Assembly (NCBI RefSeq): GCF_026241135.1
Contig: NZ_JAPFGA010000014.1
Coordinates: 1 to 64,000, forward strand
DNA length: 64,000 nt
DNA from: Galbibacter kalidii
GTDB taxonomy: Bacteria; Bacteroidota; Bacteroidia; Flavobacteriales; Flavobacteriaceae
Direction of reading: 5' to 3'
Made by a program: the position numbers and the translations under genes. Below, in pieces: positions 25,803 through 33,972 of the stretch. Within the stretch, counting starts at the first letter, position 1. The number at the start of each line of letters is the position of its first letter. Below the pieces are notes generated by a model. The model searched no databases. It was not told the DNA's origin and saw only the letters and a program-made list of their open reading frames with translations.

Positions 25803-26075
25803 TTATTTGTATTCGTAACCATCATTCAAAAACTTTCCGTACTTCTTTTCTACCAATTTAAAAAAATCAGAAAGAGATATATTTCTAGATTCGCAGATTT
25901 TGTGAAGTGTTTCGACAGGAATGCGATACTCTTTGGGGGTTTTTATTTTTCTTACAATGCTTTCTTCTACATTATGATGATCTGCAAAAGATCTTTGAGA
26001 TTTTTTAGAATTAAGCCAAGGTGTTAGCCATTCTTTCGTTATAAATTCACATATAATTTTATTAACCCCTATCAT
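25803..26075 (-). CDS. Cro/C1-type HTH regulator
   Basis: I chose the ATG at 26075 (90 residues, MIGVNKIICEFITKEWLTPW); the longer frame to 26126 adds an unlikely hydrophobic leader. The helix-turn-helix reads SQRSFADHHNVEESIVRKIKTP followed by RIPVETLHKICESRNISLSDFF, the usual XRE pattern with the C-terminal ISLSDFF helix. It is divergent from the sigma-factor locus, 100 bp from the TATATTTG promoter elements. It could therefore regulate the structured RNA, the sigma factor or itself. That regulatory link is inference. Confidence 0.7.
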   Translation of the reverse strand: MIGVNKIICEFITKEWLTPWLNSKKSQRSFADHHNVEESIVRKIKTPKEYRIPVETLHKICESRNISLSDFFKLVEKKYGKFLNDGYEYK

Positions 26076-26141
26076 ATAACAAAAAAATAGAATACTTGAA
26101 GAATGATTGCGCACGTTCATACGCAATAAGAAAAATTTTAT

Positions 26142-26168
26142 TATATTTGTTTTGTAATATTATATTTG
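26142..26168 (+). promoter_or_regulatory. Two Bacteroidota -7 elements TATATTTG
   Basis: TATATTTG occurs at 26142-26149 and again at 26161-26168, matching the TAnnTTTG consensus. Initiation about 7 nt after the second would place the RNA start at about 26174, where the structured RNA begins. No clear TTG -33 element at ideal spacing is visible. Confidence 0.5.
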
Positions 26169-26173
26169 CGAAA

Positions 26174-26345
26174 CTTCTTAGAGTAAAATATTAGAAGCAT
26201 TCGCTTTGAAGCCTGATCTAAAAACTGGTAATTTTTAAACGACAGGGTGATAAGTGTAAATGCTCACGACCCGGGCGTGGGCTTACTTGTTGTCGTGCGG
26301 TATACCAGTACCTTAGATCGATAAGTTGAGTATCCACGCCTTTTT
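26174..26345 (+). ncRNA. Structured RNA candidate upstream of the sigma factor
   Basis: A long imperfect hairpin can be drawn by eye: GATCTAA 26215-26221 with TTAGATC 26313-26319; ACTGGTA 26224-26230 with TACCAGT 26303-26309; ACGACA 26239-26244 with TGTCGT 26291-26296; AAGT 26252-26255 with ACTT 26285-26288; CACG 26265-26268 with CGTG 26276-26279. A small 5' hairpin pairs CTTCT 26174-26178 with AGAAG 26193-26197. Alternatively GGCGTGG (26274-26280) pairs with CCACGCC (26334-26340) just before a T-run, a terminator-like helix incompatible with the apical stem. It could be a stand-alone RNA (shape reminiscent of 6S RNA) or a switching leader of the sigma-factor gene. Identity is unknown to me. 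Confidence 0.55.
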
Positions 26346-26482
26346 ATTTATAGAAAAAGTGCATTCTTCTCAACCCTTTTCAAAGTTATCTTCTCTTTAT
26401 AAGCTGTAAGAACTCGCATCAGCTATTTTATCAATCCAATTTAATTCCGGTGGAAGCTACCGCCGCTTTAAATGAGTTCGTT

Positions 26483-27268
26483 ATGTCACACCGTAATTTT
26501 AAATTATTAAAAAACAGTGACCCCACTGCTTTGGTACAAATCCACGCGCAATACAGCAGAAGTATCTTTTGGATGGGCAAGCAATGGCTTGATGATGAAT
26601 TTGTGGTAAAATCTTTAGTTCAGGATGTTTTTTTAAAATTATGGGTGCATAGGGACAAAATAGAATCTCCTAAGCATATTTTCTTTTTTTTACGGTTTGT
26701 CATGAAAAGGGAATGTATTTCATATTACAGCAAACCCAAAAACAGGTTTTTTAGAACGGTCAACTCCTTAGAGAATTACGGCAATTACCAAGATTATATG
26801 CTAGGTTATGATCCGGTAAATGATGATGAAAGTTTACGGGATCAGGAGTCGAAACAAAAAGCCTTCGACCAAATCAAAAAGGTATTGCCCTTGTTAAGTG
26901 CAAAAAGGAGACACTTGATAGAGCTCTGTTTAAAATACGGCTTTCAATATAAAGCGATTGCCGAGGTTATGGGAAAGGGTATCACCGAAACCAGCAACGA
27001 GGTAAAACGGGCTATTGAGGACATAAAGAATATGGTCGATCAGGGAAACAGGCTTGGCAACGACCAAAAACGGCTTACCCGTATAAAAGTGCAGGGAACC
27101 ATGACCGAAGAGCAGTCCACGGTATTAAAACTTAGGTGTGAAAAGAAGTTTTCTTTTGCGGCTATCGCCAGGGAACTCAACCTGTCTGAAAAGGAAGTGC
27201 ATAAAGAATTTATGGCCGCGTATAAACTCATGCAGGAGAAACATACGGAACAATTAGAATCAGCTTAG
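26483..27268 (+). CDS. ECF sigma factor with extra C-terminal HTH, linked to dCas12f
   Basis: I chose ATG 26483 (261 residues), which begins about 7 residues before region sigma2; a GTG at 26450 would add 11 residues. Sigma2 covers about residues 8-90: [20 protein letters not shown], then [17 protein letters not shown] with the core-RNAP-binding pattern. Sigma4 covers about 130-190 ([20 protein letters not shown] and [20 protein letters not shown]). A second HTH-like region follows at about 205-255 ([20 protein letters not shown] and [20 protein letters not shown]), which ordinary ECF factors lack. No anti-sigma gene follows; the next gene on the strand is the dead Cas12f homologue. Partnering of such sigma factors with dCas12f is known from recent work on Bacteroidota; here it is inferred from linkage. 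Confidence 0.88.
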
Positions 27269-27304
27269 ACATGAAATGAGCATAAACAAATTTCATCATT
27301 ATAT

Positions 27305-27613
27305 ACCAACTGATATGATTAAATTTTTTAAACATACTGAATTTGTTAAGGTTTTGATGAAATCTCAATGTTTGTGGTTTGGTTCCGGCCTACGATAGGA
27401 CCAAGCGTTAAAAAAACATCCAGTGGATGTTTTTAGCGACGGGGCCAGCCGGCGCGAAGGAATAATGACTCAGGCGGAATGAGTTTTTTTTCATCTGTGG
27501 CTGGGGATTCCGTAGTATTTTCTTATGTTTTTATCGTCAGCCTAGACTTTTTTGGTTCTTTTTTGGGCAATGCAAAAAAGAACAGATGAAAATTTATTTA
27601 GGACGGAATTGAT
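27305..27613 (-). repeat. About 300-bp dispersed repeat, copy B (inverted), with nested hairpin repeat
   Basis: This is the reverse-orientation copy of the repeats at 2757 and 35834, recognised by CTGGGGATTCCGTAGTATTT. It contains covarying hairpin repeat copy 6 (27399-27456, stem AACATCC/GGATGTT). It separates the sigma-factor gene from dcas12f. Confidence 0.85.
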
Positions 27614-27667
27614 GCGAAACAGAAGGTTCACGAACACTATTTATATAATAAGAGTTAAGTGAGTAAT

Positions 27668-27732
27668 TCCTGAATGTGCAGAAATTTTTAGTTTTTTCAT
27701 CCGCCGTTGGCGGACTATAAAATTTTAAACAG
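27668..27732 (+). promoter_or_regulatory. dcas12f leader shared with the S9 peptidase gene
   Basis: From ATTCCTGAATGTG through the hairpin TCCGCC-GTT-GGCGGA to the start codon, this leader is nearly identical to the 70-75 bp upstream of the S9 peptidase start (43006-43076, minus strand). The hairpin sits about 20 nt before the ATG in both. Confidence 0.6.
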
Positions 27733-28830
27733 ATGAAAAATTCAACACTCAAACTCACCCGAAAGATCCAGCTTTTGGTCGATCTGCCCACTCAAGAGGA
27801 ACGAAAGGAGGCGCTGGACAAGCTTTACCGGTGGCAAAACCGCTGTTACAGGGCGGCCAACCTTATTGTTTCCCATTTGTATGTACAGGAAATGATCAAA
27901 GACTTCTTTTATCTTTCTGAAGGAATCAGGTATAAACTGGCCGATGAAAAAAAAGATGAAGATGGCATTTTACAATGTTATCGTCTCAACGCAACCTATC
28001 GTGTTATATCGAATCGCTTTAAAGGTGAAATCCCAACCAATATTTTGTTAAGTTTAAACAAAACTTTAGTTTCTACTTTTTATAAAAAAAAGTCTGAATA
28101 TTGGAAGGGTATGCGTTCACTGGATAACTTTAAAAGTGATATGGCATTTCCATTTTTACCGATAAACATAAGAAAATTACACTATGAGGAACAGAAAAAG
28201 GCATTTTGTTTTCGATTGTTTAAAATCCCATTTAAGACGTATTTAGGGAGGGATTTTAATGACAAACGAAAACTATTGGAACGTTTTGTAAATGGAGATA
28301 TTAAGCTATGTGCTTCGCATATTAAACTAAAAGGCAAAAAAACCTTTTGGCTGGCGACCTTTGAAATTGAAAAGGAAAAGCATGACCTGAAGCCCGAGGT
28401 CGTAGCAGAGGCCTCACTCTCTCTTGAATATCCTATGATTGTAAAAATTGGAAGTACAAGGCTCAGTATCGGCACTAGGGAAGAGTTTCTGTATAGAAGG
28501 TTGGCGATACAGGCAGCCCGGAAAAGGACTCTTGAAGGTATTGCTTACTGTAAATCAGGTAAAGGACGTAAACGAAAACTTAAAGCAGTGGACAAGTTCC
28601 ACAACACAGAAAGTAATTATGTAGACCACCGACTGCATGTATACAGTAGAAAACTCATTGATTTTTGTGTGAAACATCAGGCCGGAACGCTTATTTTATT
28701 AAACCAGGAGGACAAGATCGCGATTGCAAAAGAGGAAGAATTTGTACTTAGAAACTGGAGCTATTATGAACTGATGACTAAAATAAAATACAAGGCTGAA
28801 AAAGCGGGTATTGAACTTATTATAGGTTAA
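27733..28830 (+). CDS. Nuclease-dead Cas12f/TnpB-like RNA-guided DNA-binding protein (dCas12f)
   Basis: The product has 365 residues. The N-terminal region (LYRWQNRCYRAANLIVSHLY at about 31-50) and the central KLKGKKTFWLATFEIEKEKH segment (about 198-217) match Cas12f/TnpB wedge and REC architecture. The RuvC-I motif, normally VDLG, reads A227-S228-L229-S230, so the catalytic aspartate is serine. The arginine-rich bridge follows (FLYRRLAIQAARKR). RuvC-II, normally MEDL, reads L322-L323-N324-Q325, so the glutamate is leucine. The NWSYYELMTKIKYKAEKAGI segment typical of Cas12f is kept (341-360), but the protein stops five residues later: zinc ribbon and RuvC-III aspartate are absent. It should bind guide RNA and DNA without cutting. 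A sigma factor lies upstream and the guide RNA starts 13 bp after the stop codon. Confidence 0.92.
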   Translation: MKNSTLKLTRKIQLLVDLPTQEERKEALDKLYRWQNRCYRAANLIVSHLYVQEMIKDFFYLSEGIRYKLADEKKDEDGILQCYRLNATYRVISNRFKGEIPTNILLSLNKTLVSTFYKKKSEYWKGMRSLDNFKSDMAFPFLPINIRKLHYEEQKKAFCFRLFKIPFKTYLGRDFNDKRKLLERFVNGDIKLCASHIKLKGKKTFWLATFEIEKEKHDLKPEVVAEASLSLEYPMIVKIGSTRLSIGTREEFLYRRLAIQAARKRTLEGIAYCKSGKGRKRKLKAVDKFHNTESNYVDHRLHVYSRKLIDFCVKHQAGTLILLNQEDKIAIAKEEEFVLRNWSYYELMTKIKYKAEKAGIELIIG

Positions 28831-28842
28831 GGAATTTATCGA

Positions 28843-28927
28843 GGGTGCTTGTACACCCATAGGGTGAGGTTTAATAACGCTCACTAAATGCGGATAGCAT
28901 ATACAACCCCTCCAATCTTTAAAATCG
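28843..28927 (+). ncRNA. dCas12f guide RNA 1 (scaffold plus 20-nt guide)
   Basis: The scaffold begins 13 bp after the dcas12f stop. Helices: GGGTG 28843-28847 with CACCC 28854-28858; GTGAG 28864-28868 with CTCAC 28880-28884; ATGC 28888-28891 with GCAT 28897-28900; then ATACAAC (28901-28907). Cas12f crRNA repeats characteristically end in GCAAC/ACAAC directly before the guide. The guide would be CCCTCCAATCTTTAAAATCG (28908-28927). The scaffold recurs twice (29042 and 33889) with helices conserved and loops variable. I found no second match to the guide in the window. Confidence 0.82.
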
Positions 28928-28970
28928 ATGAGGTTAATATCATTCATTAAATGCAAACTGAATATTAAAT
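28864..28970 (+). CRISPR. Minimal repeat-spacer-degenerate repeat unit
   Basis: A 44-nt repeat (28864-28907) is followed by a 20-nt spacer (28908-28927) and a 43-nt degraded second repeat (28928-28970). Shared landmarks are TGAGGTT, TTCA(C/T)TAAATGC or CTCACTAAATGC, and (A/G)CATAT or GAATAT. In the degraded repeat the GTGAG/CTCAC stem becomes ATGAG/TTCAT, still pairing. No cas1/cas2 and no further repeats are present, so this is an exapted, fixed guide rather than an adaptive array. Confidence 0.75.
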
Positions 28971-28980
28971 TAATGTCTAT

Positions 28981-29030
28981 AAAAATACAAATCCCAAAGC
29001 TAGGTATTGATCTTATTACGGATTAATAGC
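28981..29030 (+). pseudogene. Duplicated 3' end of dcas12f
   Basis: AAAATACAA...GGTATTGATCTTATTACGGATTAA resembles the last codons of dcas12f (GGTATTGAACTTATTATAGG, then TTAA); 20 of the 24 terminal bases agree. It sits just before the second scaffold copy, as the true gene end sits before the first. Confidence 0.7.
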
Positions 29031-29041
29031 TTGATTTTAAG

Positions 29042-29128
29042 GATGCTTGCACACCCGTAAGGTGAGGTTACTTACGAACGCTCACTAAATGTGAACAGCA
29101 TATACAACGGCGTGGGTTCTCTTATTTT
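29042..29128 (+). ncRNA. Guide RNA scaffold copy 2
   Basis: The scaffold spans 29042-29108 with CACC/GGTG, GTGAG/CTCAC and ATGT/GCAT (G-U wobble) helices and ends in ATACAAC. The next 20 nt are GGCGTGGGTTCTCTTATTTT. From the third base on, this matches the flank that follows guide 3 (33972 onward). So copy 2 either uses flank as its guide or has lost its guide and is inactive. Confidence 0.65.
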
Positions 29129-30304: not shown

Positions 30305-30760
30305 ATGGAAGAATTAAAAGATATACGAAGACCTTCTAAGGAAGAGCAGACTACTGCCATTGCTTCTTATAATGCCCTGTCGGCTACTTTGGAGGAGCTA
30401 AAGGTTAAAAACCCTGAAATAGAAATAGAAGAAACTCAGGATAAAATTAAAATTCCTTTAAAGGCTTTAAGGTTATTGGCTACCATTCTAAAAGCTATGG
30501 GAGAAGGAAAGCCCATTTCCATAGTTCCGATGGCAACTGAAATGACTACTCAGTCGGCTGCAGAATTTTTAGGGTGCTCAAGGCCTCACCTTGTAAAGCT
30601 ATTAGAGAAAGGTAAAATCCCTTTTACCAAAATAGGAAAGCACCGAAGGGTAAAGTTTGAAGATGTGGCCAATTATAAAGAGGCCATGAAAGAACAGCAA
30701 GAAGCATTACTCAAAAAAATGATGAAGTTGGACGAAGAATCCGGGTTGTATGATTCATAG
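30305..30760 (+). CDS. Excisionase-type HTH antitoxin
   Basis: The product has 151 residues. An N-terminal helical region (about 1-75) is followed by a MerR/excisionase-like helix-turn-helix: TTQSAAEFLGCSRPHLVKLL (about 81-100) and KIPFTKIGKHRRVKFEDVAN. This is the DNA-binding partner usually found upstream of PIN_3-type toxins in Bacteria. It overlaps the PIN gene by 11 bp, indicating coupled translation. It presumably binds and neutralises the PIN RNase and represses the TAACTTTG promoter upstream. Confidence 0.85.
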   Translation: MEELKDIRRPSKEEQTTAIASYNALSATLEELKVKNPEIEIEETQDKIKIPLKALRLLATILKAMGEGKPISIVPMATEMTTQSAAEFLGCSRPHLVKLLEKGKIPFTKIGKHRRVKFEDVANYKEAMKEQQEALLKKMMKLDEESGLYDS

Positions 30761-31313
30761 TGTTCGTTTTACTTGTGTGTTAGACACTAATGTAATCTAC
30801 CCGATTGATATCCGTGATTTGTTGTTTTGGTTTGCTGTTTATGAACTTTTTACACCTAAATGGAGTAAGCACATCTTTGATGAATGGGAATCGGTAATGA
30901 AGCGAAAAGGGGTTCCGGATGCTGAAATAAAAAAACGCATTAAAATGGCCAATGATGCATTTCCGGACGCTTTTGTCAATAATTATGAAGGCCTTATAGA
31001 CGGTTTAACACTACCAGATGAAAAAGACAGGCATGTATTGGCAGCAGCTATTAAAACAAACGCCAATATCATTGTAACCAACAATCTCAAAGACTTTCCT
31101 AAAGAATATATAGTTACTTTTGGATTGAGCGCAAAAGGGGTCGATGATTTTTTAACCGATATTATTGATCTAAACCCGCAAAAAGCCATAGAAGCATTTC
31201 GTAAACTTGTTTTAAACAGAACAAATCCCGACCTGGATGAATTTGAAACGCTGGATAGATTTAGAAAATTAGGTTTAAACGATACAGCCAATTATTTGCA
31301 TGCTCTTCTATAA
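30750..31313 (+). CDS. PIN-domain toxin (ribonuclease)
   Basis: The product has 187 residues. The PIN core is clear: LDTNVIYPIDIRDLL (first catalytic aspartate, residue 11 or so), DEWESVMKRKG (acidic), LPDEKDRHVLAAAI (second acidic cluster) and IIVTNNLKDFP (third site). PIN toxins cleave RNA, often tRNA or mRNA. The C-terminal about 60 residues (FLTDIIDLNPQKAIEAFRKL) are typical of the longer PIN_3 group. It pairs with the excisionase-type HTH gene it overlaps by 11 bp. The pair sits as an island between two blocks of dispersed repeats. Confidence 0.87.
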   Translation: MIHSVRFTCVLDTNVIYPIDIRDLLFWFAVYELFTPKWSKHIFDEWESVMKRKGVPDAEIKKRIKMANDAFPDAFVNNYEGLIDGLTLPDEKDRHVLAAAIKTNANIIVTNNLKDFPKEYIVTFGLSAKGVDDFLTDIIDLNPQKAIEAFRKLVLNRTNPDLDEFETLDRFRKLGLNDTANYLHALL

Positions 31314-33850: not shown

Positions 33851-33888
33851 AACATCCCACACCCATAGATTAACCAATAGGGTTAAGA

Positions 33889-33972
33889 GGGTGCTTGTAC
33901 ACCCGTAAGGTGAGGTCAATGACACTCACTAAATGCGAACAGCATATGCAACTAACTGACGACTACACTGAC
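33889..33972 (+). ncRNA. Orphan guide RNA copy 3 with a distinct guide
   Basis: The scaffold spans 33889-33952 with GGGTG/CACCC, GTGAG/CTCAC and ATGC/GCAT helices all intact and ends in ATGCAAC, closest to the classical Cas12f repeat end. The following 20 nt TAACTGACGACTACACTGAC differ from the other guides. It lies 5 kb from dcas12f without protein genes of the system. No second occurrence of the guide was found in the window. Confidence 0.72.

Follow-up and report, generated by a model that had tools for sequence, protein, structure and literature searches.

The locus encodes an ECF sigma factor, a nuclease-dead Cas12f and guide RNAs

We analysed a stretch of 64,000 nucleotides from Galbibacter kalidii (contig NZ_JAPFGA010000014.1), called the window below, whose forward strand carries the gene of an extracytoplasmic function (ECF) sigma factor of 261 aa (26483–27268), followed by that of a nuclease-dead Cas12f (dCas12f) of 365 aa (27733–28830) and by guide RNA (gRNA) scaffolds, and preceded by a structured leader RNA. 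An earlier note made from the letters had taken this locus for an RNA-guided transcription system, and this reading is supported: the two proteins are sequence neighbours of the dCas12f-sigma complex of Flagellimonas taeanensis (PDB 9n9c, 9n9m, 9n9o and 9n9q), with equal lengths and full-length alignments, and the order of the genes with a scaffold downstream is the same. Judged by its sequence, the locus is an intact member of the recently described dCas12f-sigma RNA-guided transcription systems, a kind already known, and what is new here is where the guides point, namely to a conserved attenuator-like leader, the address that most of the family's guides share. Neither the papers on dCas12f-sigma systems nor an account of this leader turned up in a literature search that did not cover preprints. 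In such systems the guide RNA and the sigma factor reportedly start transcription at a target beside a 5′-G, and in that of F. taeanensis the start reportedly lies some tens of nt past the R-loop. By analogy with this system and from the PDB chain names, the window locus would have guide-directed transcription activity as well.

The open reading frame (ORF) of the sigma factor starts with ATG at 26483, with an alternative upstream GTG at 26450 possible. Its product matched Sigma70_r4_2 of Pfam (E 1.9e-10), with Sigma70_r2 below its cut-off, and the PDB chain 9n9q_C, named “RpoE” and likewise of 261 aa (E 2.2e-115). The earlier placement of an ECF sigma gene upstream on the same strand was thus confirmed by ORF, Pfam and PDB matches, and that of a Cas12f/TnpB homologue of 365 residues by its ORF. 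The window dCas12f aligned over its full length with 9n9c_A, “Nuclease-deactivated Cas12f” (E 1.4e-188), and is 75% identical to this F. taeanensis protein, which stands in the PDB (9n9c, 9n9q) with its sigma factor and shows no difference over 365 residues from the protein of the F. taeanensis locus L017. Apart from this divergence, the window differs from the F. taeanensis system in a 464-nt spacer between the two genes and in the presence of two paralogous loci in one genome.

For comparison, relatives were scanned in one collection, where 118 were found and the best 80 kept; together with the two loci of the own genome they make 82 loci, which by record title belong to Bacteroidota and mostly to Flavobacteriia. 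A linked sigma gene of the same subfamily lies directly upstream of dCas12f in 81 of these 82 loci, the remaining one being cut by a contig end, and the gap between both genes has a median of 1 nt. The repeat-bearing spacer of the window (27269–27732, forward strand) is absent from other loci and is the largest such gap of the 81. It holds a palindromic repeat (ACATCCAGTGGATGTTTTTAG and relatives) with four matches in the window, two of them overlapping at 27410–27436.

Active Cas12f nucleases (9nzr, 9nzo) belong to the same protein family (E 1.9e-42), whereas the window protein is without the RuvC-I aspartate, RuvC-III and the zinc ribbon. When aligned with 9nzr by phmmer, it has S228 at the RuvC-I aspartate, as the earlier note had read it, and residue 228 is serine in 80 and threonine in two of the 82 loci. 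The companion claim, that the RuvC-II glutamate is replaced by L323, stood in part: residue 323 is never glutamate in the 82 loci, but the RuvC-II glutamate of 9nzr falls into a gap beside L323, and because a nearby glutamate (E326) is kept in 74 of the 82, this loss, unlike that of RuvC-I, depends on the alignment. The Pfam family OrfB_IS605 stayed below its cut-off and so did Cas12f1-like_TNB, of which only the first 20 of 60 model positions were matched (E 0.14); the protein ends there and the aligned part of 9nzr stops at residue 416 of 508, therefore RuvC-III and the zinc ribbon are missing, as had been claimed, and alignment with the Cas12f nuclease 9nzr leaves no intact RuvC triad. The dCas12f gene has a dN/dS of about 0.10 against its paralogue and against the Sinomicrobium locus L016, and of 0.09 against L017; synonymous sites are nearly saturated in these comparisons.

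gRNA scaffolds and their guides

A covariance model (R2) was built from 25 scaffolds, the first two of the window among them, and covariation over these 25 backs the scaffold structure. It found six scaffolds in the whole genome, two behind the window dCas12f, an orphan at 33887 and three at a second locus. Scaffold g1 (28841–28907, E 7.9e-19) begins about 11 nt past the dCas12f stop, in agreement with the predicted structured scaffold and guide just downstream of this gene, and is followed by the guide CCCTCCAATC... (28908–28927), for which a target was not found. Scaffold g2 (29039–29108, E 2.8e-15) carries the guide GGCGTGGGTTCTCTTATTTT (29109–29128), which is of leader type and matches leaders, and the orphan g3 (33887–33952, E 4.9e-19) carries TAACTGACGACTACACTGAC (33953–33972), with a 10-nt match preceded by G upstream of an own SusC gene; all are on the forward strand. 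The earlier note spoke of three guides; two scaffolds lie inside the range then described (26174–29128), and the third lies outside it. The fold of scaffold g1 was better than shuffles (z −3.45), and that of scaffold g2 with its guide was no better (z −0.35). The segment 28960–29038 in front of scaffold g2 looks by eye like a decayed copy of the dCas12f 3′ end, as if gene end and gRNA had been duplicated as one unit.

The 82 loci hold 113 scaffolds by R2, at least one each, the model having been built from 25 of these 113. A guide with GCGTGGGC within its first bases (≤1 mismatch) is present in 66 of the 82 loci, corresponding to 67 of the 113 guides, and the other 46 scaffolds carry another sequence at the guide position. 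With up to 3 mismatches allowed in 18, guide g1 gave 20 matches, and apart from the guide itself every one of them has 3. Its reversed control gave 9, and the matches were taken as chance. A near-match of g2 at 33970 was set aside as the flank of the orphan gRNA, which is homologous to the stretch after g2.

A structured leader with the marks of an attenuator

The leader upstream of the sigma gene (26202–26346, forward strand) scored 151 bits with our leader model R1. In 38 aligned examples of about 145 nt, RNAalifold gave 33 pairs forming a nested hairpin; 96.2% of the alignment cells can pair, against 29.5–43.1% with one side slid, and both sides have changed in 15 pairs. A second, incompatible fold is formed when GGGCGTGGGCTTACTT pairs with a segment ending CCACGCC ahead of a T run; here 95.3% of cells pair, against 39.5–62.2% when slid, and both-side changes occur in six pairs, against 2.5 in shuffles. 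In the window this terminator hairpin, followed by its T run, spans 26273–26346 on the same strand and has a fold energy of −30.7 kcal/mol (z −4.92), which was not equalled in 200 shuffles. These two mutually exclusive covarying folds, one of them a terminator, are marks of an attenuator, and the leader presumably regulates the genes behind it. In sharing one strand, called the switch strand below, between two covarying folds, the leader resembles transcription attenuators and riboswitch leaders; it differs from the known ones in that it has no known ligand and no Rfam family reaching threshold, a lax search returning only matches far below the gathering scores, and in that the guide matches this very strand.

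Upstream of the leader lies TATATTTG (26161–26168, forward strand), the −7 motif of a probable housekeeping promoter, and in 69 of 81 leaders, several of them near-duplicates, the conserved form TANNTTTG stands no more than 110 nt upstream, against 12% in mononucleotide shuffles. On the reverse strand, a small divergent gene of the helix-turn-helix (HTH; Cro/C1-like) type, with a TTG start and 107 aa, occupies 25803–26126 (HTH_26, E 8.4e-4, just below cut-off). Strong leaders were found by R1 in 50 of the 82 sources, with two further weak matches, and the F. taeanensis locus L017 has the same leader ahead of its sigma gene.

The leader is not confined to genomes with this dCas12f. A set of 199 family genomes contains 38 with the leader and nine with this dCas12f (E up to 1e-40), and all nine are among the 38 (P 1.5e-7); genomes without this dCas12f are those with none at this threshold, where more distant dCas12f proteins could remain. 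Scaffolds were found by R2 in the same nine genomes and, as one weak single, in another leader genome without this dCas12f (G042:C1:23457-23523), perhaps a remnant. Genomes without this dCas12f hold 47 leader places. We fetched 20 of them, from the strong end: 15 precede a SusC-like gene by motif, two (L178, L179) by eye an ECF sigma/FecR/TonB-receptor set, and three have none in the stretch. The switch strand is conserved in these genomes too, so guides are not what conserves it; the leader is an element in its own right, its sequence maintained by its own structure.

Guides match leaders across genomes

The core GCGTGGGCTCTCTTAT was searched at ≤1 mismatch in 21 genomes and gave 51 matches in 20 of them, and none for the reversed pattern. 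These matches are 21 gRNA guides, 28 whole leaders and two leader 3′ halves, the last judged by eye where the script had called them “other”. At this threshold 15 of the 21 genomes contain leader sites, and each of the 30 sites (28 leaders and two halves) has a G before the core. Downstream of the 28 leaders lie 13 SusC-like genes by motif, one of them only a 110-aa ORF, and 10 sigma genes of this kind; five leaders had neither within the stretch, two of which reach the contig end, one inside a SusC-like start.

Guides of other types were followed as well. The guide of L017, unlike the leader-type guide of the window, is a different one and matches beyond the leader. Four genomes were searched for this F. 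taeanensis-type guide, TTGTGGGATAYACG, and 15 of the places found were read. Five of these are stretches upstream of SusC-type genes with alike surroundings and G before the site: at three, the leader precedes the site by about 230 nt and a SusC gene follows it, and the remaining two sit 289 and 263 nt past a leader site on their contigs. The extra guides of L016 had no site in the five stretches examined. In Salegentibacter sp. 24, with one SusC and one sigma-leader stretch, a guide of L064 matched 12 of 12 nt after a C and a guide of L061 10 of 12 after a G, with 3 of 300 shuffled guides as good for the latter; neither was leaned on, and the remaining guides gave nothing above shuffles when G was required.

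The predicted regulon in the own genome

A second complete system, with a dCas12f 77% identical to that of the window, is present at G000:C26:178601-179692 and has a sigma gene, a leader, a divergent HTH gene and three scaffolds. By eye, it adjoins mobilisation genes. R1 found four leaders in the genome. Those of the dCas12f loci are at C20:26202-26346 (the window) and C26:180617-180762 (the paralogue), and two on contig 13, at C13:35142-35293 and C13:138406-138555, precede a SusC-SusD-S9 peptidase and a SusC-SusD-DUF4953 metalloprotease operon; a divergent HTH gene stands at each of these two as well, with one of the two HTH matches below cut-off. SusC/SusD operons are the main nutrient-uptake operons of Bacteroidota. 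Both leader-bearing operons of contig 13 (L132, L133) end in a protease gene, S9 in one and a DUF4953 met-zincin in the other, which suggests peptide uptake as their possible role.

The genome search proposed earlier gave candidate sites, preceded by G and ahead of genes, for g2 and g3, and no target for g1. Guide g2 matches the four own leaders in 9–11 of its first 12 nt, best at the leader of the paralogue and, at one SusC leader, with the first 10 nt unbroken. In the window leader its predicted site is on the switch strand (26274–26293, forward strand, with G at 26273), where it matches 9 of the first 12 and 15 of 20 nt. The pattern GCGTGGGYTNNNTTRTT had two matches only in the own genome, guide g2 and the window leader, and its control none. 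The orphan g3 and the second guide of the paralogue match 10 and 11 of 12 nt at two sites ahead of one SusC gene, 50 nt from each other, both in sense orientation and preceded by G; for each, 3 of 400 shuffled guides were as good, a value uncorrected for the six guides tested. The earlier expectation of a regulon outside the window is supported by the two SusC/SusD operons of contig 13, which bear leader sites for guides, and needs amendment in that one site belongs to the window itself, where it lies in the structured leader ahead of the sigma-dCas12f operon.

Proposed mechanism and its alternatives

We consider it probable that the locus is a dCas12f-sigma system whose main guide is aimed at this leader class and whose guided start escapes attenuation. 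The leader, which folds either as the nested hairpin or as the terminator, would by default be read from a housekeeping promoter. The main guide copies the switch strand of the leader ahead of SusC/SusD operons and of the sigma-dCas12f operon; the complex of gRNA and dCas12f would bring the sigma factor, and hence RNA polymerase, to DNA beside a 5′-G, and transcription would begin a short way downstream in the guide direction. A start at or beyond the switch strand would yield transcripts without the 5′ arm of the terminator, which would escape attenuation, so that the uptake operons would be switched on and the system would reinforce itself. The targeting of the leader by guides is well supported by the sequence comparisons. 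The bypass of the attenuator by guided initiation we infer from site positions: the predicted sites of the own genome and the five F. taeanensis-type sites are at or beyond the 5′ arm of the terminator in sense orientation, and if the start lies some tens of nt past the R-loop, as reportedly in F. taeanensis, the transcripts would lack this arm.

Several observations weigh against this explanation. The G before the core is hairpin-paired and therefore not an independent proof of a target-adjacent motif, and in Chryseobacterium, with GGCG taken as the start of the guide, a C precedes the site. Guides fit the leader of their own locus no better than others (over 33 loci, 12.88 of 16 against 12.99 when permuted, with 847 of 1000 permutations doing as well), and within loci the identity of guide and leader is high and firm only over about 10 nt. 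For TTGTGGGATAYACG, 29 matches at ≤3 mismatches in 18 stand against 25 for the reversed pattern, therefore most of them are chance. In the own genome, g2 fits the window leader worst of the four and also matches its opposite strand in 10 of 12 nt, preceded by A, and for two of six guides, g1 and the first guide of the paralogue, no target was better than for shuffled guides. The conservation of the switch strand in genomes without this dCas12f and the 464-nt spacer, which may weaken this copy, belong here too.

One alternative is that the complex represses, dCas12f on the leader blocking transcription from the upstream promoter in the manner of TldR or CRISPR interference, with the sigma factor a by-product or acting elsewhere. 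The leader sites do lie downstream of the conserved promoter motif, where a bound complex could stop elongation, and TldRs, nuclease-dead TnpB repressors that like the window protein are RuvC-dead TnpB/Cas12f relatives acting on transcription with a guide RNA, are described as repressors (PMC13418256). The sigma gene encoded alongside, however, speaks against TldR-type membership, and its place directly upstream in nearly all loci, with a median gap of 1 nt, together with the relative solved with RpoE in 9n9q, makes repression unlikely. A decaying window copy, with only the paralogue on contig 26 at work, is about as improbable: the long repeat-bearing spacer, the poor fit of g2 to its own leader and the missing target of g1 would agree with it, but both ORFs and the scaffolds are intact and the dN/dS is low.

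Slightly less likely still is an action of the gRNA on the leader RNA and not on DNA: by pairing with the antiterminator's 5′ arm or the terminator's 3′ arm, it could shift the attenuator in trans. That the guide equals the strand common to both folds, and that g2 also matches the complementary arm of its own leader, would fit such pairing, but other guides match sense sites beyond the leader, where a sense RNA has no complementary transcript, and the protein is a relative of DNA-binding Cas12f; a DNA target accounts for the sites in the leader and for those beyond it. Least likely is that the conserved GCGTGGGCTC with its T run is no guide and belongs to the 3′ end or terminator of the gRNA itself, resembling the leader by structural convergence. 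The entry into a T tract after about 10–12 nt in many loci, chiefly of Chryseobacterium, and the lack of locus-level covariation with the leader would fit this. Against it stand the 46 scaffolds with another sequence there, some matching SusC upstream sites, and the finding of this sequence outside gRNAs only at leaders in the 21 genomes. Both the tract and the leader-only occurrence would be accounted for if the guide were short and ended in a T tract.

The own genome offers natural addresses at which dCas12f-sigma systems can be tested, four leaders and two further sites. The shared address suggests that one guide could serve a whole regulon through a common regulatory element, and if the bypass is true, the choice of start site decides whether the attenuator counts at all. 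The structured leader, without an Rfam match at threshold, is of interest in itself, as it lies ahead of SusC/SusD operons also in genomes where this dCas12f was not found. That a natural system addresses a widespread structured attenuator rather than single genes, by guided bypass with positive feedback, and that this attenuator is a new RNA class occurring also in genomes without this dCas12f, is offered tentatively, with a chance a little short of even.

Elsewhere in the window, a pair of HTH_17 and PIN_3 genes at 30305–31313 probably forms a toxin-antitoxin module.

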